A stretch of 63,686 nt of DNA from Mycoplasmataceae bacterium. Its GTDB lineage: Bacteria; Bacillota_I; Bacilli_A; Mycoplasmatales; Mycoplasmoidaceae. The position numbers and the translations under genes are program-made. Shown here piece after piece: positions 2,854 through 43,213 of this stretch (position 1 is the first letter of the stretch; each line of letters opens with the position of its first letter). A model generated the notes under the pieces. It saw nothing but the letters and a program-made list of their open reading frames with translations, did not search any database and had not been told where the DNA came from. The DNA lies in contig JAITXG010000018.1 of NCBI GenBank assembly GCA_031284865.1, forward strand, positions 1 to 63,686, written 5' to 3'.

Positions 2854-3984
2854 ATGAAATTACTAAAGCAAACTGTTGTAACACACCAAGAAATATATGT
2901 TGCCAACATTACTGTTGAGCGTGGTTTAATTACCGAGATTACCCGTTTAAATCTTTCCCCTAACTTAAACCAAGTTTTAATGCCTGGTTACATTGATGTC
3001 CATACACACGGTGGATACGGTTTTGATTTTAATGATCTTAAGAACGATCGTTATCGTCCTAGCTTTAAAAAGTATCTTAATAAAATCCATAGTGAAGGTG
3101 TAACTAGTGTAATGGCGACAACAGTAACATGCCCAATGCAAGATTTAAAGAACATCGCTAAGAACATTGTTAATATTCATCGCTATGATGCTAACAACGT
3201 AATTGTCGGTTGAAATATGGAAGGACCGTTTATTTCTCCCGAAAAAAAAGGTGCTCATGATGAACATAACATTGTTCCTGTTGATAATGCTTTGCTTAAT
3301 CTAATCAAAGGGATGCGTAAATTTAACGTGTCTGTTGTGATTGCACCTGAATATAAAGGCAATGTTGAAAAAATCTCACAGATTAAATCATATGCCGATG
3401 TAGCCATCGGTCATTCGTTAGCTTCGGCTGACTTGACAATGCAAGCAATTCAGCTAGGTGCCAATAAAATTATTCATTTGTATAACGCGATGTCTGGTTT
3501 TAATCACCATAATCCTGGCGTGGTAAATGCTGCTTTTATGGATAAACATGTTTTATGTGAACTAATTTGTGATAACGTCCATGTCAATCCGGTTGTCGTT
3601 CGAAACTCCTTTGATATCTTAACGCCTAAACGCATTATTATCATTAGCGATTCTTTAGTTTGCAAGGGGTTAAAGAATGGTGACTACATGTTAGGTACAT
3701 TACCAATCACCAAGCATAACCAAATTGCTACGTTAACTAATTCTGAGACTATAGCTGGTTCGATTACAGGGTTTGACGTGAATGTTCGTAATATGTACAA
3801 TGATGTTCAATGTTCACTACATGACATTGTGCAGATGAGCTCTTACAATGCGGCGCGATCATTTCATCAGGAACACAATCTTGGTGTTATTGAAGTTGGT
3901 GCCAAGGCTAACTTTGTACTTGTTAATAAAAAAATGCATGTATTAAAGACATATATCAATGGTAAAATTGTATACCAAAGATAA
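2854..3984 (+). CDS. nagA: N-acetylglucosamine-6-phosphate deacetylase
   Basis: Amidohydrolase that removes acetate from GlcNAc-6-phosphate, feeding amino sugars into glycolysis through NagB. The 376 residues match the E. coli enzyme (382). Visible motifs: the metal site DVHTHGG (H50, H52), the catalytic-site WNMEGPF (E123; its W is TGA), GHSLA (H187), HLYNAMSGFNHHNPG (H208), and the ISDSL segment carrying the catalytic aspartate. No nagB or GlcNAc PTS gene lies nearby. Its stop codon is one base from the stop of the convergent ABC ATPase gene, with no terminator between them. Confidence 0.95.
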
Positions 3985-3985
3985 A

Positions 3986-4819
3986 TTACTTTATTTTTAA
4001 ATAATTACTCATAAATCTTTCAAGGCTGCCGAAGTGTTGGATGATTGATTTAATGGTAGTATCTAAAACAATGCTACCATCACGTAAAATGATGACACGT
4101 TGGGCAAAATGAATAATTTCACGAACGTTATGGGAAGATATTAATGTAGTGATTTTATTTTTATTGATGTAATTTTTGACATATTTAAACATTCATAATT
4201 GCGCATTAATATCTAATGCTGTTGATAATTCATCCAAGAATAGAATCTTGGGGTCAGACATGACAGCTAAAAACACATTTAATCTTTGCTGTTGGCCCCC
4301 CGATAATTTGTGTGCTTGTTTGTTCAACATTTGATCCAAACGAAATGTTTTTAGTAGTTTGGCTAAATCGGCTTCCGATATTTTATAACGATTAATGGAA
4401 TTCTGAAAAGAGATAATATCAAATACTTTTAAACCACGAGGACATGAAGCATCTTGAAATTGAATACCAATTCGTTCTTGTGGTGAATATTTAAAGTCAT
4501 AATCGTAATATATTCGTCCTGACGAAGGAACCACACTACCTGATAGAATTTCTAATAGTGTGGTTTTACCAGCTCCATTAGTCCCAAGAATAGCTACTTG
4601 TTCTCCTTCATAGACACTAAAACTAATTTTACTCAATACCTCTTTAAATTTATGATGAACAAAATATTTCTTTGTTAGATCCTTTACCTCAATAATTGGT
4701 CGTTCGTGATCAGCATGTTTTTCGATAACTGGTTTAAAATTTTTTAATTGTGCTGAAAAACGAGGGTCGATTGCAATATGATTGGTGGCAGTGGGCTTTT
4801 TCTTATTAAAAAATCACAT
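3986..4819 (-). CDS. ABC transporter ATPase, module copy 1
   Basis: 277-residue ATPase, last gene of the six-gene operon. An N-terminal extension of about 60 residues precedes the nucleotide-binding domain with Walker A GTNGAGKTT, Q-loop IGIQFQDAS, signature LSGGQQQR, Walker B LFLDELSTALD and H-loop SSHNVRE. The usual DEP after Walker B is DEL. The closest relative in the window is the 277-residue ATPase at 7533-8366, with the same length, extension and YYDYDFKY.P.E.IGIQFQ region. TGA tryptophans occur at residue 2 and near the C-terminus. It starts 2 bases after the stop of its permease. The CcmA-like domain with an ABC-2 permease suggests export; the substrate is unknown. Confidence 0.88.
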
Positions 4820-4821
4820 AG

Positions 4822-5694
4822 TTAATCTCTCCGGTTCCATCTAAACGTAGCAATATCTAATACGCCCAAGGCAAACGTAATTCCAACTGGCATAAATAGC
4901 GCCATATATTTATCAAATGAGCCCAAAATATCGACGATAGCAAAACTTGTTCCGAGTTTAATCGTAAGTAATGTAGATGGATCAAACATTGATGAACCAT
5001 ATATATTAAACACCGAGTGGGAATGAGCAAATCATGCTTGGTAATTTAAGCATGAAGTATACCAAAATGGATCGACATAAACAACTTTAGTCAGCAATGG
5101 CATACCGACTCCTGTCGTAACATTATGAACCACTCCGATTGGTACTCCTAAGCCTCCCAAAACGAATGAAACGACTATCACAGCAATTGATATTAATTGA
5201 ATTTGAAAATTACGACGACAAACAACCATCCAAATAAAGCCAATGGATAATGACATAACATAAGTCAAAGTAATAGCATACCACAGATACAAGTAATTTG
5301 CTCCCGTTAACATATCCGATATAAACCCACGATAATTTCAGAGTATTAAATATGATCACAATATTTGTCAAATGTAACTCACGAAGACAACAATGTAATA
5401 GTAAACAATAATAGTCATCAAGAAAACAATTGGTTTAACTGGTGATGACCCCATTCGTTTCAATAACATTGAAGTTCTTAAGTCATTAACGGATATTGGA
5501 ATGACAATCATTGTTAAACTTAAAATAACAGTGGTGTAGCACCCCGGTAGAACCATATTCGGAATAATTTCTCCAACTAAATTCCAAACCGATGAAACGA
5601 TGAAAAGAAAAACAAACGACAAGCCGAAAGCAAAAAACGGCCCATAAAAGGATTTTCAGAAATATATATTTACTAATTTAATGGTTCCGCGCAT
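4822..5694 (-). CDS. ABC-2 type permease, module copy 1
   Basis: 290-residue integral membrane protein with about six hydrophobic helices and no enzyme motif. It starts MRGTIKLVNIYFWKSFYGP, and residues before the last helices read VYVDPFWYTSCLNYQAW, matching YFDPLRYSSFLSFESW in the second copy (8381-9247). It starts three bases after the LRR lipoprotein stop and ends two bases before the ATPase start, so translation is likely coupled. The fold is that of ABC-2 exporters by hydropathy and partner, not by a named family motif. I infer that it forms a homodimeric channel with the ATPase at 3986-4819. Confidence 0.8.
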
Positions 5695-5697
5695 AAA

Positions 5698-7533
5698 TTA
5701 TTCCTTTCGATCCTTAGAAAATTTATCTCTCTTAGCGATAAAAGCATTCTTGCGTGTCTTATCGTCTCGCTTGCGTAAGTAAATACGAATTAAATAAAAT
5801 GAAATAACTGAGGCAGCCATTGTACTAAATATGGTAGCGTTCAATATGAAAATGATATTATTCCTTTTAAAAACATTGGCATTAGTACAATAACTATTGT
5901 GCATATCAAACAAACTTAATATTCTGTTTGTAATGTCAGCAATACCACCTGATAAATCTAAATTTGTAGGTAGGTAATGATCAATTGATAAGTCAAATCT
6001 ACAAACAATAATATACCTCCCCAAATTTCGTGAAAATTCCGAAGCTAAGCCTGATTTACTTGCAATTAAAGAAGTTCATGATTGTCCAGTCTGCTGTGAT
6101 CACCCATTGTTTTTTTCAAAATAATCAAAGCATATTGATTCATTACCATAAGCAATAATATCATCTATGTATCTATTCCTAAAATCAGCTGGAAATTTTG
6201 CCTTCATCATGTTGGTAAGATCTTGATCGGTAATAATAACTGCATCTGTTTGATAACAGCCTAATTGCAATACCATTTCTAAAACATCAACGAGCAGCGT
6301 TGTTCCATCTACTCGACTGTAATTAATATAGAAGTATGAATCATCAATAAGATCTACGCCTGCAGTTTCTAGTTCGCCCCAAATTGACTGTCCTGTTTTT
6401 GCATAAGTAGCATACTTTTTTAGTGAATATATATAAGGCATATAATTGTAATCTAACATTAATCCATCTGATCCAGTAGATTGAAAAAGCCAATTTCTAA
6501 ACGGTTTTACTATTGATGCTAATCCAGGCACATATATCTCTGTGTATGCATCGGCATCATCATCATCAGATGGTGCTGGATTCAAATTTAAATATGTCAA
6601 ACAATTATGTTCTAAATTAATACCGTCTAAGAATGTTGGGTCAGTATCTTCCCCTAGTGGAGCGGTATATCGATATCCTTCAAAGGAATAATAATCACGA
6701 TTATATCCCGTTCCTACATATGTATCTTTTTGCGTCATAAAATGAAGGCCACGTGTGGGTCCCTTAAGAGATGATCAATTTGGAACATTACGTAGATGGT
6801 TATTAGATAAATCTATATAGCTTATGTGACTGTCACCTAGAGGGCCAATAAACGTTGACCCAGTAAAATTATCATATGAACTGCCACTGAGATAAGCGGC
6901 TTCAAAACTAGTGGTTCGATCCAACAAAATATTTCATAGCATTGGATTTAAAAGGGCCATAACGCTGTTATCACGCTCATAATCACTTGAATACAAACCA
7001 CTTAAATTTAAAATCCCATGCATGTTGTGTTCTACAAAATTTTTTAATTTTACCGTAGTCACTATTCCATTGATATATTGTCGGCCACCCGCAAAATAAG
7101 CTGCAACATCAGGATTGATAAAGAAATCACGGTAAGTATTAGCATAAGTTGACTGGGTATTCTCATCTGCAACTAAAGTAGCAAACCCTTGTAAATCTCA
7201 TCAACCATTATTATTCTTGGCTTGATCCATATCATTGTTATAAATATGCGTACCGTGTGGATAAATCGGGGCAGCCAAGTTAATTCCATGCTTATCATAA
7301 GTAGCGCCATCGACATCATTGAAGAATGAAATATCATCCTGATAAGTATAGTAATATTGTTCATATTGGTCGCGAGACAAGGTATGATAATCACCAACAT
7401 CGTTACCTGCTGGTATAGTGCTTAACTTAGTAGCATTAGAAGAGCAAGAAGAACCGACCAAAAGTGCTGGTGCTGCAATACTAGCAACTAGTAAACCTGA
7501 AAATAGAATTTTATGTATTTTAATCATAACCAT
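5698..7533 (-). CDS. LRR surface lipoprotein with C-terminal membrane anchor, module copy 1
   Basis: 611-residue exported protein. An N-terminal lipoprotein signal ends in VGSSC, so the mature N-terminus would be lipid-anchored outside. A leucine-rich-repeat patch SYIDLSNNHLRNVPNW lies around residues 240-255, with ILNLSG earlier. A large polar ectodomain follows, then a transmembrane helix at about 559-583 and a basic tail (RKRDDKTRKN...). It is therefore held at both ends, an unusual design. The ATG overlaps the stop of the preceding ATPase gene by one base (TAATG). It is similar in plan, but not closely in sequence, to 9250-10794. Possible roles are substrate capture or sensing for the ABC pair; function unknown. 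Confidence 0.8.
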
Positions 7534-8366
7534 TATCCCCCCATGTATTTCTGCAAGAAGGTCTCAACCGAACCAAACTTCTTATGAATGACATCAATTC
7601 GAGCATCAGCCATCACATAACCATTACGAATCATGATTAAACGGTTACATAATGTATCCATTTCACGAATAGAATGAGATGACATGATCGTAGTGATCTT
7701 ATGTTTATTTAAGAAAGCCTTTAAATAACTTAATATTTGATTTTGACTTACAATGTCTAAACCGGTGGTTAATTCATCTAATAAAAGGAATTGGGGTTTG
7801 TGTAAAATACTTAAGACGACATTCACTCTTTGGCGTTGACCACCTGATAAATTACGAATATTCTCTTTCGCTAGATCATTTAAGCCAAATGCATGTAAGA
7901 GTTCCTTACGTTCAGCTAGTGTTAGTTTAATCTTATGAGTATCTAAAATGAAATCAATGACATTATTAACTGTAATGCCTGTAGGATAACTTGACTTTTG
8001 AAACTGGATTCCAATTTTCTCTTCGGGATAGATTTTGTAATCAAGATTGTAATAAATTTTGCCACAAGAAGCTTCACGTACGCAGGCTAAGATTTCAATC
8101 AATGTACTCTTACCAGAACCGTTAGCACCAACCAAAGCAATGCAATCACCTTGAAATACCGTGAAATTAATATCCCATAGTACTACATGTTGTCGCGATG
8201 AGAACTCGTTATAAATCTTTTGTAAATGTTCAACTTTAATTAATGCTTGTGCACTTTTTTTATCATAATGTCCAATTTTCTTTTGAATCTGCTTAGACAT
8301 TGCCAAATCAGAATCAGTTTTCTGATTGAACGATACCTGCGATAAGACTTTTCTTTTCTTTAACAT
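7533..8366 (-). CDS. ABC transporter ATPase, module copy 2
   Basis: 277-residue ATPase paralogous to the one at 3986-4819. Motifs in order: Walker A GANGSGKST, Q-loop IGIQFQKSS, signature LSGGQRQR, Walker B FLLLDELTTGLD and H-loop SSHSIRE. As in its sister, DEP is DEL. The N-terminal 50 residues are polar and basic, perhaps docking on the permease. A very strong ribosome site (AGGAGGAGG) lies before ATG 8366. Its stop codon shares one base with the start of the next lipoprotein gene, joining the two modules into one operon. Confidence 0.88.
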   Translation of the reverse strand: MLKKRKVLSQVSFNQKTDSDLAMSKQIQKKIGHYDKKSAQALIKVEHLQKIYNEFSSRQHVVLWDINFTVFQGDCIALVGANGSGKSTLIEILACVREASCGKIYYNLDYKIYPEEKIGIQFQKSSYPTGITVNNVIDFILDTHKIKLTLAERKELLHAFGLNDLAKENIRNLSGGQRQRVNVVLSILHKPQFLLLDELTTGLDIVSQNQILSYLKAFLNKHKITTIMSSHSIREMDTLCNRLIMIRNGYVMADARIDVIHKKFGSVETFLQKYMGG

Positions 8367-8380
8367 ATTACTACCTCCTC

Positions 8381-9247
8381 CTATATTTTATATAGCAACA
8401 GTGCTGCGCTAGTGAACGAGATTGTGAATGCAAAAGGAGCAAAGATATTTGCGATCTTATCTGGCACACTTAAAATCGTCACTGGAATCGCTAATTGTGA
8501 AACAACCCGAGCCATGTATGGTGTCGATACATCAAAAATCGAAGATTGATATGTATTGAATTCACTGGCTTTACCAAACCATGACTCAAACGACAAGAAA
8601 GAACTGTAGCGCAATGGATCAAAATAAGTCAGTGTCCATAAAGGGTGATTAGACCAACTACTAAGTTCAATTGGCAAAATAAATCCAGCTAGAACTAATG
8701 AAGCGATCACGATAGAAAACCCAACTAGCGGTACAACAATCGGCTTTTTTGCCACTGAAACAACAAACATCGCAATTGATCCAGATAAAATGATATGAAT
8801 AAAGATAGTATAAAAAACACTACCTCAGTTAGCATCATAAAATATTTGCTGCATCGCTGCTCTTAAATCGGCGCTCATTCCAATTCAAGGATTCATTAAA
8901 GCACCAATGAAATAGGAAATTAAAGCCAATACTGCATAATATAAGAATGACGTAAATAAAACGGTCGTTTTTCTAATTGATGTGGCTTTTAAAAATTTCA
9001 TTAGAACTGAATCATTCAATTCATATAACGCCTGAGGAAACATTACTAACATAATAACCGTTGGCGCTAATAAGAAGGCATTAGGCAAAACTAAAGTCGA
9101 AAGCGATATCGCTACATTACCCATTGGTTTAATAAAAAATGTGGCACTAACAATTCAAACATAAAGAATTGGGAATATAAAAGTAATCGCTGGTCCAAAC
9201 ACTGATTTTCAATAACCGATATTAATAATTCGAAAAATCGCACGCAT
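8381..9247 (-). CDS. ABC-2 type permease, module copy 2
   Basis: 288-residue membrane protein, paralogue of 4822-5694: both begin MR-x(2)-x-[IL] followed by NI-x-[YF]-x-W-KS-x(1,2)-GP, and both carry the DP-[FL]-x-Y-[TS]-S motif before the final helices (here YFDPLRYSSFLSFESW). About six transmembrane helices are predicted from hydrophobic stretches. Several TGA tryptophans (GYWKS, YVWIV, NPWIG, NWGSV). It begins two bases after the TAG stop of its LRR lipoprotein gene. It presumably assembles with the ATPase at 7533-8366. Substrate not inferable. Confidence 0.8.
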
Positions 9248-9249
9248 AA

Positions 9250-10794
9250 CTACTTAGTCCCCATCGATTTTGCAATTTCACGAATCGTACGCTCTTTATG
9301 ACGACGTGCAAGGTATTTTCTAATCCAGATGAAATAGATAATTATAAATACAACAGCCAGGCCTAATAAGACACTAAACGCTATTAACACGCCTCGGACA
9401 ATCAATGATTTAGCAAATCCGCTAATGGTGTATGAATAAAACATTTGGCTACTTTTACTATACTTTATGCTTGTTCCATCATATAATTGTCAATCAGTAA
9501 AATCAAAGGCTAGACGCATGCTACCATTCATTCAATCAGATTGGGCATACAGATAAGAGTGAATGTGATTATCACCCATTGTTAAACCAATTCCTAATGG
9601 ATCATTACCACCTTGCACAGAATAAACAATGCTTGAAGCAATGTTATTGCGAATGAAGAAATTACATAATAGTATTGCAACGTTATCACCAAGAATTTTG
9701 TTAATTTGGATGGGATCGTGATCCACCAAATAATATGAACTAATATCAATATTTCATTTTTGCATATAGTAATCTTTAACAAAATTCATGAGAATATTAC
9801 GGTCATACCATAAAGCAGTAGATTGTTTGTGTAGCTTAGTTGCAGGATCTATTTCACCATAATCAATGTTATTAATATAAGCATATGGTGTATATGTCAC
9901 GAATAAATCAGTAGCGTTATTTGTAGGATCTTGTACAAGGTAGTTATCGTCAAGTTTAATTTTACATATTGGCTTAGGCGGAGTCTCAGAATTCATTTTA
10001 CCAATAGTCGTTAAATCAACACTATCATCTTCTTTGCCTTTCACATCAATCGCTCTTGAAACGGTGGTGATGTGATTGTGTTGCAGGTCAAGTTCCTCTA
10101 ATTTTGTGAAGCCAACTTTCTTTCATGCACCTCATTCACCGCTTTTGCTCACATATCCGAATAAAGGAACATGTCATAGTTTATTATTGGAAAGATCAAG
10201 ATGTGCTACATTAGCAAATGCTTCATTACCATCGGGAAATAAACAAGGATTATTTAAAGTGCGAATAACATCGTCAGCATAAATATCGTTCTCTAGTGTC
10301 TTTGATAAATCAAGAGTGTCAGTAGACAACGTTTTTAAATCACTTAATTTAACAATATCCCCTGTATTTTTACCAGCCGATGTAGCAATCTTATTAGCCA
10401 AATTAGAATCTAAAAAAAATTGTTCATAAGTTAGTGCATTAGGTGCACCTAATGCACTGTCATTTAACCAGCCTGTGGTTTTATCATAAATGGTGTCTCA
10501 ATTTGGTACGACATCATTAGGGTGCAAGGCACTATAAATTTCTGGATAAGGTAAACCATAATCATCGGTTGATCATACTTGTTGAGTAATATCTAATTTA
10601 TGAACACCCTGTACTGACCATGTTCTAGGAGTAAAATCGGCTAGTTTGGGTCGTGCACTATTCATTGAACTAGCGCCGGCATTTTCGTTAGCACAACCAC
10701 TAATTATTCCCATCATTGGAATGAACAAACCTACTAGAGTTGCAAGTCCTACTTTTAGTCTATTTTTCTTCTGTTTTTTACTATGGTGAACCAT
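9250..10794 (-). CDS. LRR surface lipoprotein with C-terminal membrane anchor, module copy 2
   Basis: 514-residue protein, first gene of the six-gene operon. The N-terminus is basic (MVHHSKKQKKNR), followed by a hydrophobic stretch and lipobox IISGC. Two canonical LRR units are visible: VAHLDLSNNKLWHVP (about 193-207) and LEELDLQHNHITTV (about 222-236). After a polar ectodomain comes a transmembrane helix at about 466-494 and a basic cytoplasmic tail (RKYLARRHKER). Same plan as 5698-7533 with weak sequence identity, so the lipoproteins have diverged faster than the transporter parts. The -10 box sits seven bases before the ATG. Confidence 0.8.
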
Positions 10795-10993: not shown

Positions 10994-11716
10994 ATGAAGA
11001 ATATTAACAATGGATTAAGACCTATGAAAAAGTGAAAACTAGTGCTTTTATCCAATGTTACCATCGTAACTAGCGGTACTATTATCATTCCGTGAGCAAG
11101 TTCTTGTAAAAAAATTAATTCAGTCGAATTATGAGGCATGAAGATCAATAATTTATGGGATTTAGCAAACGGAGGTAATGGCATTTTACTTTCTAAAAGT
11201 GTCACAAATTTGTCAGGTGAATTTTCTAAATCGGTTACTGATAATGATATGCTGCAAAGCATTACAACAGCAATGAATGTCTATTCATATGCCTATGCTT
11301 TTTGCATTTGTATGGCCTCTGCCACATGGCAAGTATGAAATGAAATACCACAGATTGTTTTTAGCAATGTTTGCTTTAAAACAGAAGTTGTAAATGGGAA
11401 ATTAACATCCAATACTCACTTAAATTTTGATTTAATCTATAAAGATGAAATTGGACGTTTTACCTTTGCTGTGAATGGCAATCAAAGTTTATGTGCTGCA
11501 GGTGAAGGATTTGGTGAAATAGGCGACAACGCTTTGGTTTTTGGCCAATACGGTGAGGAGTATGTTGGAGCACACAACTTTCATCTATCATTAGTTGGGC
11601 TCGGGGACTATGACTTTGATACATATGTCAGTTCACTTGAATGTTTTATGAACACCACTAGGGGTGACTTATTTCAAATCATGTTCCCTAAAGTTACTAC
11701 TTGACCTAGCAAATAA
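10994..11716 (+). CDS. Predicted lipoprotein of unknown function
   Basis: 240-residue protein with an N-terminal hydrophobic segment ending in the lipobox-like WASSC (residues about 35-39), then a polar, mostly beta-like domain (FDLIYKDEIGRFTFAVNGN). I recognise no family. Six or more tryptophans are TGA. The start is uncertain: ATG at 10994 or the in-frame ATG at 11024 (MKKWKLVLL), which gives a more typical signal peptide; neither has a good ribosome site. It diverges from the LRR/ABC operon across 199 bases, so it may share regulation with it, but this is only context. Confidence 0.65.
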
Positions 11717-14887: not shown

Positions 14888-15793
14888 TTAAGCGAAAATA
14901 TTTTTATTACAAGAAAATCAAGTGTAAAATTCGCCGTCACTATTACCACCATGGCCTCTTTTACCGTTACCGCCATGATCAGTAGTCATTACTATCATTC
15001 AGTCTTCGTTATCTCTAGATTCGACGGTAGAAATCAGTTCTTTGGCCTTGGCATCCGTCTCTTTAAGTGCATCCATATATTGGGAGTTGTCAGGGTCGAA
15101 ACCCGTTCTGTGACCATTGTGGTCAACATCATCGAAAATACAAAAAACTGCAGGATAATCTTCACTAATGCGTTGTTTGGCGTCAATAAGAATATCGGCA
15201 TCAGAACTTTTACCATGATAATCGACAGTTGAATTTTCCATTATGCTATTTCAAACCCAACCAAATTCACAATTTCCAAAATATGTTTCAATACCGCGAT
15301 TGGCTAATGTGCTTTGGATAATTGGTTTTTTCAATACTCCGTCTGAGTCATTATTTTTAATACCATTCTCACGACCTCACACACCAGTAAAAACACTACA
15401 TCATCCCGGATTAGATGATGTTTTTTGATTACCACGTTTTGCTCCACCACAATGAGCAAAATATGGGTGTCCATTATATGCATTTGAGAAAATGGCACTG
15501 TCTTCAGACAGTCTCGCCGCAGCATCTACTCGTGTACCGTCGTAACCCAATAACAATAATTTATGTTTGTTTTCAGCATTAGAACCGTTCATTCAATTTA
15601 TCATCGGTTGATATGCGGCGGTTTGCGGAAGGGGATTTTTTAACGCATTGGCAAATTGATTAATTTGCTCTGACGTCATTTTAAGTGGGACAGTTGCACC
15701 ACAACTAGTCGGCATCAGTAAGCAAGTAGTAATCGCACAGGCAGAACTAGTGGCTATTAATATTTTATAAAATACTTTACGAGAGTTATTCAT
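14888..15793 (-). CDS. Surface lipoprotein of the alkaline phosphatase/phosphodiesterase superfamily
   Basis: 301 residues. A signal peptide ends in lipobox-like MPTSC. The metal-site signature of the alkaline phosphatase superfamily is in order: LLGYDGTRVDAA (metal Asp, Thr nucleophile), IFDDVDHNGHRTGF (Asp/His pair) and TTDHGGNGKRGHGG (Asp-His, then final His). This resembles type I phosphodiesterase/nucleotide pyrophosphatases. The protein is short, with little after the last histidine. I infer an ecto-enzyme releasing phosphate or nucleotides from host substrates, useful to an organism that must import nucleotides; the exact substrate is unknown. Four or more TGA tryptophans. Confidence 0.8.
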
Positions 15794-16400: not shown

Positions 16401-18128
16401 ATGTTAAAATATAAGCTGCTTGCTGTCGATTTGGATGGGACGCTGTTAAGTAAAAGTAAACGAATTTCAACTAATAATTTGGATGCTTTACAACGTTATA
16501 CAAGTAACGGCGGAACATGTGTAGTCATGACTGGCCGCTCAATTACTTCAGCCGAGCGCTATACAAAACAAATTGATGATTTTGCGCAAAATCAAAGTAA
16601 GTACATAATCGCTTTGAACGGTGCATATATCAAAAATTTATTAACTGGTGAGACCATCACAAATTTAATTGACGCTGATATCGTTAAGGATATTTATGCT
16701 TATGGCAAAGAACATCATTTAACGGTATGAATATACAGTGAAGAGGCTGTTGCAAAAAAAGGTGTAGTCAGTTCATGATCATTAATGGCTATTATTTTAA
16801 AATATCTACACTGCCTAAAATTGTTTCGCTTTAAACACAGTGCAAATTTAGCTTCCTTTAAAATTAATTTATTGTCGTTTCGTAAAAATAAATTAAAAAA
16901 AGCATACAAATGATTAGAAGAAAAATATGGTAGTCGATTAACTGTTTGTCTCTCATCTCCTCGCCATATTGAGATTAATAATTTAAATGTTAATAAAGGC
17001 ATGGCTTTAACTAAGCTTATGCAATGGTATAATGTTAATCCTGAGCAAACAATGGCTATTGGCGATAGCAATAATGATTTAACAGCTTTTAAAACCGCTG
17101 GGGCATCAGTTGCTATTAAATCGCGTAGCTCTGCTTTATTAGCGCAAGCAACACACAAGATCAATTTTAAAAAAGATGCTGTGGCACACGCTATTGATTC
17201 ATATGTAATTTCTTCAAAAAAAGGTGATATCACTTTAATTGCTTCAGATTTAGATGGCACATTATTACAATCATCTACCAAAGACATTGTAGAATCTACA
17301 AAGCTCTCAATTCAAAAAGCTGTAGATGAAAAAGGTATGATCTTTGTAATCAGTACAGGACGAGCTGTAGATGATTGCCTGGTAGTATTAAAAAATTTAG
17401 AAATTAAGGATCAATCCAAGCTCTATGTAATTGGTGTTAATGGTGGATGCATTTATCATGTTGCTAAACGTAAAATTATCTACATTAATTATTTACCTAG
17501 TCCACTAGCATCGCAAGTTTATGGTAATTTCTTAAGAATTGCTAATGATGTCAATCGTAAAGGTGAAATGTCATGTCAGCTTTTTGCACTTGGTGATGCT
17601 AAATTAAATCATCCTCAACCTTTATACTGATACAACCAAGAATATTTATATAACAAGTTCCGTGAAAAAATTCCTGGTATGCTAGTTAATAATTGGGCCC
17701 CAAAGGAAGATCACTTGATTGAAGATGTAAATAATATCAAGAATATTTTCAAAATGGTTTTTCACTTTGAAAATCTAGATGATCGCGCTCGTGTTATGGC
17801 TTTATTTGAAGCATTTAAAGATCAAGTTGAAATTACTCCTTCGGCCCCTGATAATATCGAAATAATGCCTAAGGATTCAAATAAAGGTAGCGGTTTGACT
17901 CGCTTATGTGCTTATCTTGGCATTGATGTGAAAGACACAATGCCGGTGGGTGACGAGAAAAATGATATCTCTATGTTAGCATTGTCTAAGCATAGCGTTA
18001 CTTTGAACAGTGCCCCAGAGATTGTTCGTAATGCGGCGGCTTTTGTTCTAGATACTAAACCTTCTTATTTAACTGGACAAGCCATTGATGAGTTGATTCT
18101 TAAGCCAAAGGTGGAGTATGCCGAATAA
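16401..18128 (+). CDS. Fused double HAD (Cof-type) phosphatase
   Basis: One open frame of 575 residues holds two complete Cof-like HAD units. Unit 1 (about 1-275) has motif [12 protein letters not shown], motif II VMTGRS and motif [13 protein letters not shown]. Unit 2 (about 276-575) has [18 protein letters not shown] and [11 protein letters not shown]. Each has a lysine before motif IV (NKGMAL, NKGSGL). In-frame TGA occurs between them but no true stop. Cof proteins dephosphorylate sugar phosphates, FMN or PLP. Separate Cof genes are common in Mollicutes; a tandem fusion is not usual. The stop overlaps potA by 11 bases, so it is translated with the polyamine operon. Confidence 0.85.
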
Positions 18129-39986: not shown

Positions 39987-41204
39987 CTATATGTAACGTA
40001 CAGTTCATCCGTCTGTAAGACCAATACAGAGAGTCGTAGGTTCTCATTCTTTATATAAATTAATATGTCCACCAGATGTTCCGACAAAACTTTCATTACC
40101 GAAACTTATTGAATCGGGTGCGGCTCCATTACTGAAAAATATGTCTCTAATTGAAGAGTTATAAAATGCGTATCCATCAAAACTAATATCTTGTGCATTG
40201 TTAAAAATGACATAGTGTGTCATGCTTCCGTTAAAATAGCTAGTCTTAAAATGACTAAAAGCAGTTACTCGTGAATAATCTAATGAAGGTGCGTTTATAT
40301 TTCCGGTCCTGACATCATAACCAGACTGACGATCTGAACCATCATCTGTAAAACTTCCTGGAAATATCAAATCATTCATTATTCTGGCGCCCGTAAAGCA
40401 ATGTCCGTATCGAGAAATCTCGAATGGTAATTTTTCTACTCTCGTATTTTCAAAATTTTCAATATCTAGTGTGCAACCGTCAAATATTTCCCAGCCTAAT
40501 GTAAGCAAATTATTTGGCAATCCTATATATTCTAAAGTTGATGATTGAAAGGCAAAACTACCAATATAATTACAAACAGAAGAAGCGGCATTATCAAACT
40601 TAATTGCATACAACCCGTTGGTGTTTTGAAAAGCGTTATCTTGTATTGCCGTTACATTATCTGGAATTATTAATGTGTTTCCATAATCAGCAATAAAACC
40701 ACTCTTTCAACCGATAATTTCATTATTGACTTCATTAACATATGTATTATAAGGAATTATTAGTTCAGTTATTGCCTTAACACCGACCTTATAATGAAAT
40801 CCCCCACGGATTTTTTTACTAGACGATCTTGCTGTAATATCTAGTGTCATGTCGCAAAAATTAGTAAAATCTTCAACCTTAGTTTTCTCAACAACTATAG
40901 TATAATCGATATTATAAACCACATCAACACCCAACATATCTTTTATTGTATCTTCAACAACATCTATAACTGTACCGTTAGTGGCTATTCTATTTTTTTC
41001 AGCCAGAGTCACATGTGCTTTATTTCCGACAAGTATCTCAATTTGATTAGGAGCGCCTTGTTTCAAATATATTCCTACTGAGCTGATATCTAACCTAGCA
41101 TCGTCAGGAACGTTATTATTAACGCACGATGTAACTACTATAACTGGGCCTAACCCAATTCCCACAATACCGACTAATGCAGTAATTAATTTTATTTTTT
41201 TCAT
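39987..41204 (-). CDS. BspA-like leucine-rich-repeat surface lipoprotein A
   Basis: 405 residues. The signal peptide MKKIKLITALVGIVGIGLG ends in VVTSC. After an N-terminal beta domain (about 25-165), there are BspA/LRR_5-type repeats with the patterns NAFQNT..LYAIKF, SFAFQSSTLEYIGLPNNL and YAFYNSSIRDIFFSNG. The C-terminus ends DGWTVRYI. LRR_5/BspA proteins bind host matrix or cells in other bacteria (family knowledge). The signal peptide nearly repeats that of 42143-43213. A 16-base poly(A) lies in its promoter. Confidence 0.82.
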
Positions 41205-41237
41205 ATCTTTTCCCCTAAAGTTACTATTTTGTTTAGG

Positions 41238-41277
41238 ATTATATTTTACCAAAAAAAATGCTTTTTTTTTTTTTTTT
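41238..41277 (-). promoter_or_regulatory. Promoter with 16-base poly(A) tract, candidate phase-variation switch
   Basis: Minus strand: an uninterrupted A16 (41277-41262), then an 18-base spacer that includes eight T, then TATAAT (41243-41238), about 33 bases before ATG 41204 with an AGGGGAA ribosome site. The A-run covers the -35 position. Homopolymer length changes at promoters switch vlp lipoprotein genes in Mycoplasma hyorhinis. Confidence 0.65.
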
Positions 41278-42142: not shown

Positions 42143-43213
42143 TTAACTCTGTCCATTAATAGTCCATTTCTCAGGTAAACCTTTTTCAGTTAAAAATAAT
42201 TTAACATTCGATGTATCTGCCCCTCAATCATCACTTACAGTAACATTCCCAACTTTAGCAACCGATTGAAAGATATCTGCACCAAAGAATTCAGGCTCAC
42301 TATCACGGTTCCCCAAATCTATTGCCGCCAATAAAGAACAGCCAACAAAAGCATCATCACCTATTTGAAATGCTGACGTTAGATTAATCGACGTAAAAAT
42401 GCCAGAGTAAGAAAAAGCACTCTTACCAATTGCCATTAAACTTGGAGAAACAATTGATGTAATATTATTGCAGTAACGAAAGGCATTTTCACTTACGATA
42501 GCCACTCGATTTAAATCGAGTTGTCCAATGGAAGTGCATCCGTCAAAGGCTGCAACACCAACGGTGTTCACATTTTCTGCAAATTTGATATCACCACACG
42601 CTAAACCGCCATCATTACCAGCTGTAGCTGATACCTTGCCAAACTCATCGTTTACTCGGTGTAAATAACCATTTTCAGTACTAGTAACTGGTAAGCCAAA
42701 TGTTGCTCCGGCAGTTGAATCAATTAGTTGATATATTGAATTATCAATGGCTATATCCATATGTGATAACCCCGTACATTCAAAGAAAGCATTATTATCA
42801 ATAGCCGTAACGTTCCGTAAACTAATTGATTCAATACCAGTGCAGTAAGCGAAAGCAAAACCTCCAATATGTGCAACGTTAGCAAGATCAATCGACAAAA
42901 GCGAATGACAACCATAAAAAGCTTCATATGGTATGTCATTTTGTTTTGGTGAAAATGTAACCTTGCTGATAGTAGATTTATTGTAACTAACATTATTGTA
43001 AGTAAAATAATTGCCAGTATTAGCAAATGTCTTAAACGGAACGATTGCATTAATTAATGCATCCTCAGACGATGCATCAATTCTAAATTCGTCCAAGTTA
43101 GGAACTGGCTTTGGCTTGGGGGTTGGTTTCACATTACTACACGAAGTAACAACAGTGGTTGCTCCTAACCCAATAATCCCTACTAATCCCGTAATTAATT
43201 TAATTTTTTTCAT
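42143..43213 (-). CDS. BspA-like leucine-rich-repeat surface lipoprotein C
   Basis: 356 residues. Signal peptide MKKIKLITGLVGIIGLGATT with lipobox VVTSC, then a proline-rich linker KPTPKPKPVPN, then BspA/LRR_5 repeats with the pattern A-F-x-x-C-x-x-[IL]-x-x-[IL]-[DS]-L: AFYGCHSLLSIDL, AFAYCTGIESISL, AFFECTGLSHMDI, AFDGCTSIGQLDL, AFRYCNNITSIVS, AFVGCSLLAAIDL. Ends LPEKWTINGQS after one TGA tryptophan. Surface adhesin candidate. Promoter TATAAT at 43259-43254. Confidence 0.85.

Follow-up and report, generated by a model that had tools for sequence, protein, structure and literature searches.

A paired lipoprotein and ABC-2 transporter operon with predicted double-anchored leucine-rich repeat ectodomains in a Mycoplasmataceae bacterium

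A 63,686-nucleotide stretch of DNA from a Mycoplasmataceae bacterium (hereafter the window; contig JAITXG010000018.1 of assembly GCA_031284865.1) carries on its minus strand six consecutive genes that encode, twice in the same order, a lipoprotein, an ABC-2-type permease, and an ATP-binding cassette (ABC) ATPase. We propose, with a confidence a little below even, that the six products constitute one heteromeric type V ABC machine, in which two ectodomain subunits gate or hand over a surface substrate that is exported or extruded. The host is a wall-less gut bacterium whose genome is read with genetic code 4; the source genome is 654 kb in size, 81% complete, and divided into 54 contigs, of which the window is contig 10. 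The genes are given below together with expectation (E) values, including those for orthologues in G009, a metagenome-assembled genome of another member of the Mycoplasmataceae.

lipo1, 9250-10794, minus strand: double-anchored lipoprotein of 514 amino acids with three leucine-rich repeat (LRR) motifs, from open reading frame and translation; orthologue on G009 contig C19, E 1.5e-16
perm1, 8381-9247, minus strand: six-helix ABC-2/type V permease of 288 amino acids; AlphaFold model with predicted local distance difference test (pLDDT) score 89.4 and structural Z score 22.3 to ABCH over 245 residues
atp1, 7533-8366, minus strand: ABC ATPase of 277 amino acids with complete catalytic motifs and D-loop TTGLD; Pfam ABC_tran, E 1.1e-24
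lipo2, 5698-7533, minus strand: double-anchored lipoprotein of 611 amino acids with three LRR motifs; orthologue on G009 contig C19, E 5.6e-31
perm2, 4822-5694, minus strand: six-helix ABC-2 permease of 290 amino acids, paralogue of perm1; orthologue alone on G009 contig C18, E 2e-69
atp2, 3986-4819, minus strand: ABC ATPase of 277 amino acids starting from the ATG at 4819, D-loop STALD; ABC_tran, E 3.1e-28; G009 orthologue, E 4e-84

Two old and distinct halves

All six genes are intact as judged from open reading frames and translations; apart from TGA codons, which are read as tryptophan, the frames are unbroken. The initial annotation had described the locus as two copies of one three-gene unit, and this was borne out by the paralogy of the ATPases (37% identity, E 3e-65) and of the permeases (27% identity, E 4e-29). 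A pairwise BLAST comparison of lipo1 with lipo2 was not significant (E 0.02), and comparison of lipoprotein profiles, two sequences against two with the G009 orthologues included, gave a probability of 95% and an E value of 2.5e-8 over about 200 columns. The one- to three-base junctions reported for the operon were found at four places (lipo1-perm1, 2 nucleotides; atp1-lipo2, a 1-nucleotide overlap in TAATG; lipo2-perm2, 3 nucleotides; perm2-atp2, 2 nucleotides) but not between perm1 and atp1, where a gap of 14 nucleotides contains GGAGGAGG. Cotranscription is suggested by this spacing alone, because a promoter and terminator scan of the operon yielded sites no more numerous than those in shuffles.

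All six genes have separate orthologues in G009, and each is nearer to that counterpart than to its own paralogue. Identities between the window and G009 are 23% for lipo1, 26% for lipo2, 33% for perm1, 36% for perm2, 44% for atp1, and 46% for atp2, and fusA of the two genomes is 82% identical. The ATPase tree also groups the orthologues, with support of 100/98 for atp2 and 92/84 for atp1. Since each gene is closest to its G009 counterpart, the split between the halves is old and both halves have been kept; a recent duplication was rejected on the same cross-species orthology. The term "duplicated module" thus fits the paralogy of the triads but not the recency that it implies, as the split predates the two species, and it should be understood as an old, heteromer-like pair rather than a fresh copy. 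The further claim that the lipoproteins have diverged more than the transporters agrees with these identities (23-26% versus 44-46% for the ATPases).

The differences between the halves are themselves conserved. In both species, atp1 has the D-loop TTGLD and, after the Q-loop, the segment [KI]S[SH]YP, and atp2 has STALD and DASCP; the coupling segment reads DSxLxKxLK in the perm1 pair and LRTSxxLKRxGSS in the perm2 pair. These paired, conserved differences in ATPase and permease motifs mark the two halves as fixed and distinct. In G009, lipo1-perm1-atp1-lipo2-atp2 are contiguous (locus L063), and the perm2 orthologue, which is intact, stands alone on another contig (L062) between an lspA region and hisS. 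It retains the perm2-type coupling motif, matching the atp2-type DASCP segment; this preservation of type despite relocation suggests that the moved perm2 product still works with the others.

Three other marks proposed for the locus proved less specific. Both ATPases are 277 residues long, and their N-terminal extensions are alike in length (about 40 residues) but differ in sequence. DEL does stand in place of DEP after Walker B, but ATPases of this family have it as a rule throughout the genus, even those in plain permease-ATPase pairs that lack a lipoprotein, and it is therefore no mark of the LRR system. The motif DP-[FL]-x-Y-[TS]-S occurs in both window permeases, but the perm1 orthologue has DFIRYGT, and the position is a loop common to the whole permease family.

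An ordinary ABC-2 transporter core

The perm1 model, built on an alignment of 33 relatives, has a predicted template modeling (pTM) score of 0.90 and displays the full six-helix ABC-2/type V exporter fold. Its best matches among solved structures, all of them type V ABC proteins aligned along the full length, were ABCH (Z 22.3), ABCA4 (18.7), KpsM (18.2), ABCA3 (18.2), ABCG2 (17.4), and NosY (16.3-16.5), with alignments spanning about 230-260 of the 288 permease residues. Foldseek run on the model gave E values no better than 0.0076, and a PDB sequence search with the permease profile found nothing. Both ATPases retain Walker A, the Q-loop, the LSGGQ signature, the Walker B glutamate, and the H-loop (His switch), and their closest solved relative by sequence is ABCA3. 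The transporter is of the ordinary ABC-2 type. Known bacterial members of the ABC-2/type V fold export or extrude.

Lipoproteins predicted to be anchored at both ends

Both lipoproteins share one layout: a signal sequence that contains a lipobox leads into a large ectodomain, which is followed by a C-terminal membrane helix and a basic tail. Their features are as follows.

lipo1 lipobox, Cys34 (IISGC), 10693-10695, minus strand: from sequence; Lgt and LspA are encoded
lipo1 LRR motif 1, LDLSNNKL followed by WHVP, 10177-10200, minus strand: place conserved in all four homologues
lipo1 LRR motif 2, LDLQHNHI, 10069-10092, minus strand: homologue alignment
lipo1 LRR motif 3, IKLDDNYL, 9937-9960, minus strand: homologue alignment
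lipo1 C-terminal membrane helix region (basic tail of some 20 residues beyond it), 9304-9426, minus strand: hydropathy
lipo2 lipobox, Cys30 (VGSSC), 7444-7446, minus strand: from sequence
lipo2 LRR motif 1, IDLSNNHL followed by RNVP, 6793-6816, minus strand: homologue alignment
lipo2 LRR motif 2, INLEHNCL, 6598-6621, minus strand: homologue alignment
lipo2 LRR motif 3, LMLDYNYM, 6439-6462, minus strand: homologue alignment
lipo2 C-terminal membrane helix (basic tail beyond it), 5797-5859, minus strand: hydropathy

In the window, both proteins have the lipobox and cysteine of a bacterial lipoprotein, and Lgt and LspA are encoded in the genome. The predicted N-terminal lipid anchor and C-terminal helix with basic tail, as first annotated, are thus recognizable in lipo1 and lipo2 alike. 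We screened the complete lipoprotein-like proteins of at least 150 residues on nearly all contigs of the genome, with topology assigned by hydropathy only, and found a single C-terminal membrane helix plus basic tail in 2 of 49, namely, lipo1 and lipo2. They were also the only proteins of at least 250 residues in the genome screen with just an N-terminal and a C-terminal helix.

Three LRR motifs occur in a shared order in all four lipoproteins from the window and G009: [LI][DN]LSxNxLxx[VI]P, followed by another LxxN motif, [LI][DN]LxxNxxTx, and finally by LDDNYL or LDYNYM. Their spacing of 36-66 residues is longer than usual. Because a single shuffled protein can match the motif count by chance, this evidence draws its weight from the common order and position of the motifs. 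Among Pfam models, LRR_8 and LRR_1 matched lipo1 below threshold and no LRR model matched lipo2, and the lipoprotein profile, searched against PDB sequences, gave LRR matches only at chance level (E 0.38 or worse). The LRR signatures noted earlier in the ectodomains therefore hold as motifs aligned in four homologues but are weak by Pfam. With the Pfam models below cutoff and the AlphaFold model of lipo1 poor, we regard the LRR identity of the two ectodomains as likely, although not proven.

Neither protein matched the LRR_5 family (PF13306), although other lipoproteins of the window match it strongly. The BspA-type (LRR_5) lipoproteins encoded at 39987-41252 and 42143-43213 represent the usual mycoplasma kind and resemble lipo1 and lipo2 in being LRR-bearing mycoplasma lipoproteins, but they lack the C-terminal helix and linked ABC genes. 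The first of them has an additional Spiralin-domain match, below the cutoff of that model. No solute-binding-protein family in Pfam or NCBIfam matched lipo1 or lipo2, and neither did the NosD-type right-handed beta-helix family in Pfam, for proteins whose structure model is unreliable.

A lineage-specific elaboration of a common transporter

The permease family was found in 18 of the 36 genomes of the genus, and the lipoproteins were found in only one genome other than that of the window, G009. Across the 320 genomes of the order, 150 have the permease family and 2 have full-length lipoprotein matches, so the triad is a lineage-specific elaboration rather than a conserved system. Homologous transporters without a linked lipoprotein are accordingly the norm in the family at large, and in the sole other species that has them, both lipoproteins stand beside the transporter. 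Weak order-wide lipoprotein matches (E about 1e-3 to 1e-2, with one LRR fragment at 3e-5) were rejected, as they span only the signal peptide, the helix, or one repeat. No relative of lipo2 was found on viral contigs and none on plasmids, and one scan of genome contigs with the permeases as queries returned G009 records only. Because the fusA tree does not join G009 and the window species as sisters, the system appears patchy, through repeated loss or transfer, with the caveat that the genomes are incomplete.

Two simpler arrangements are found in the genus. In type A operons, one permease is enlarged by about 170 residues inserted between helices 5 and 6, and it is accompanied by an ATPase with an N-terminal extension, a second permease, and a lipoprotein whose place varies; such operons occur in at least eight other genomes of the genus (G027, G005, G020, G023, G003, G018, G033, and G011) and in the source genome itself (contig C25, locus L069). 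They share with the window locus homologous ABC-2 permeases, the ATPase extension, two different permeases, and a linked lipoprotein but differ in having one ATPase rather than two, in the permease insert, and in lipoproteins that lack both the C-terminal helix and the LRR motifs. Since type A operons place two different permeases around one ATPase, their sequences suggest that heterodimeric permeases are usual in the genus. Type B is a plain permease-ATPase pair.

Outside the genus, about 50 loci were examined. Their permease-ATPase units are either plain or fused and in some cases tandem, and no lipoprotein of the LRR kind is linked to them. The exception comes from another mycoplasma genus, in which the gene for a BspA-type LRR protein with a helix at each terminus stands divergently next to a tandem pair of fused permease-ATPase genes (G190, L187:5705-10789; G192, L213:5677-10785). 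G191 has a single fused permease-ATPase gene, and the BspA-type LRR protein is absent at the corresponding place; G194 has there a shorter double-anchored protein with no LRR match. Other lipoproteins linked to such units include a large one that bears a GH85 endo-N-acetylglucosaminidase domain and is found in two genomes of a different family within the order (G057 and G039; L088:3503-7727 and L090:3620-7880), one that we take to be GH18-like after a permease-ATPase pair (G045, L084), and one of 997 residues with a transglutaminase-like domain, also after a permease-ATPase pair (G196, L182:8837-11830).

A proposed heteromeric machine and its alternatives

In the proposed machine, the two non-identical halves, lipo1-perm1-atp1 and lipo2-perm2-atp2, would join through a perm1-perm2 pair in the membrane and a pair of ATPases beneath it. 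Two attachments would fix each lipoprotein to the outer face, namely, its N terminus, lipidated or hydrophobic, and a C-terminal helix packed against its own permease, so that the diverging LRR ectodomain is positioned over the pump exit. ATP hydrolysis would be used to export or extrude a surface-active substrate, such as a lipid, a glycolipid, or an amphipathic peptide, which the ectodomains may accept, gate, or select. Docking of the helix to the permease is suggested by its exclusive presence in lipo1 and lipo2 among the 49 proteins screened. Pairing of perm1 with perm2 accords with the two different permeases of the type A operons. The independent arrangement in G190 and G192, an LRR protein beside tandem fused permease-ATPase genes, provides a parallel. 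Of this picture, the analysis established the gene content, the paralogy, the permease fold, the intact ATP sites, the sequence-based ectodomain topology, and the long retention of both halves, whereas assembly into a single complex, transport direction, substrate, and LRR function are inferred. Set against the proposal are the conserved cognate motifs, which fit two separate homodimers equally well; the low confidence (pLDDT 41) of the lipo1 AlphaFold model based on four homologues, in which neither an LRR fold nor docking is seen; the occurrence of the system in two species only; and the degenerate lipoboxes of G009, in which the Cys is kept and is preceded by Leu or Ile/Cys, making lipidation there uncertain. 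We consider a transporter-coupled LRR ectodomain plausible but unproven. A stronger version, which is unlikely in our judgment, would be a receptor-coupled type V machine with double-anchored LRR ectodomains built in, linking recognition outside mechanically to ATP hydrolysis, the same idea having emerged independently in another mycoplasma genus.

A serious alternative, likewise compatible with the cognate motifs, is that the locus encodes a pair of independent ABC-2 homodimers, each served by an LRR lipoprotein of its own, which arose by tandem duplication and then specialized on different substrates. Both triads are complete, permease and ATPase subtype motifs pair within each triad, and partnerless plain permease-ATPase pairs, presumably working as homodimers, are common. 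However, the type A operons of the genus combine two different permeases, and in each of the two species that possess one half, the other has been retained with it. We consider this arrangement somewhat unlikely. Also to be taken seriously, albeit quite improbable, is plain cotranscription, in which lipo1 and lipo2 would be surface antigens or adhesins of the ordinary, rapidly changing sort and have no tie to the two ABC-2 exporters beyond a common transcript. Mycoplasma lipoproteins are indeed numerous, as the 49 lipoprotein-like proteins of this genome illustrate, and most homologous transporters have no linked lipoprotein; nevertheless, the junctions are very tight, the gene order is identical in both triads, the C-terminal helix is found in these two proteins only, and both remain beside the transporter in G009 despite 23-26% identity and rearrangement. 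The first annotation's suggestion of an LRR receptor or capture subunit is not supported in the sense of an importer. An importer with the LRR lipoprotein as its binding subunit appears very improbable, given the type V permease fold, the lack of any solute-binding-protein match, and an ectodomain tethered at both ends, unlike a ligand-shuttling binding protein. In its favor, ABCA4 is a type V ABC protein that imports, and the GH85 (G039 and G057) and presumed GH18-like (G045) lipoproteins beside ABC-2 units could suit glycan uptake.

Comparison with known systems provided one more candidate. NosDFY and KpsMT-KpsE, both of which act in Gram-negative envelopes, share the type V permease fold (Z 16-18) and have an extracytoplasmic partner that docks on the permease, which makes them, like LanFEG/CprABC with a lipoprotein, parallels in working principle. 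In these complexes (PDB 7o0y and 7znq; 8tsh and 8tun), the docking partners belong to other families, and the match to NosY is not diagnostic, as the fold is common to all type V transporters. The candidate, which has the same parts list, is protection against antimicrobial peptides in the manner of LanFEG or CprABC with a LanI-type lipoprotein, in which a lipoprotein binds the peptide and an ABC-2 pump expels it from the membrane. As far as these systems are described in the portion of PMC5786555 consulted here, they combine a six-helix ABC-2 permease pair of similar size (a CprB-CprC heterodimer in CprABC), one ATPase type, and an adjacent lipoprotein. The window locus likewise has two different permeases and linked lipoproteins, and fast ectodomain divergence would suit a changing ligand. 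It differs from the systems so described in having two ATPases and large LRR ectodomains anchored at both ends, and the same portion of PMC5786555 presents LanI as a lipoprotein with neither an LRR nor a C-terminal anchor mentioned. Moreover, perm1 and perm2 matched no NCBIfam model at E 0.1, those of LanE and LanG included, and neither a two-component system nor a peptide gene was recognized beside the operon. We did not assign the locus to the LanFEG family because the permease models do not match, and we rate a peptide-protection pump as low in probability as the antigen alternative.

Returning to the heteromeric machine, a literature search on LRR lipoproteins with ABC transporters in mycoplasmas and on ABC-2 transporters with lipoproteins in Mollicutes found no description of such a layout. 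The original claim of novelty thus stands within the literature searched: the double-anchored LRR lipoprotein pair on an ABC-2 transporter is new. Accessory ectodomain subunits on ABC-2 exporters are known in a few systems, and LRR proteins anchored at both ends were not found in that literature. If the lipoproteins are true subunits, the locus would be a compact case of a minimal wall-less cell adding recognition to a generic exporter, and it would raise the question of why the ectodomains (23-26% identity) change faster than the ATPases (44-46%) and fusA (82%).

Neighboring genes and other features of the window

At its end, the operon meets a convergent gene at 2854-3984 that we take to be nagA; on the other side, a plus-strand lipoprotein gene (10994-11716) separates it from fusA. 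In G023, a type A operon (L068:6002-14249) adjoins fusA, the position taken in the window by the LRR operon; the fusA-adjacent position may thus be an exchangeable slot. The window opens within lgt (1-424); contig C7 begins with the rest of this gene, so the two contigs are probably neighbors. A lipoprotein encoded at 14888-15793 shows weak but above-cutoff matches to the type I phosphodiesterase and sulfatase families, and the region 16401-18128 encodes a single protein of 575 residues that is a fusion of two Cof-type HAD hydrolase domains.

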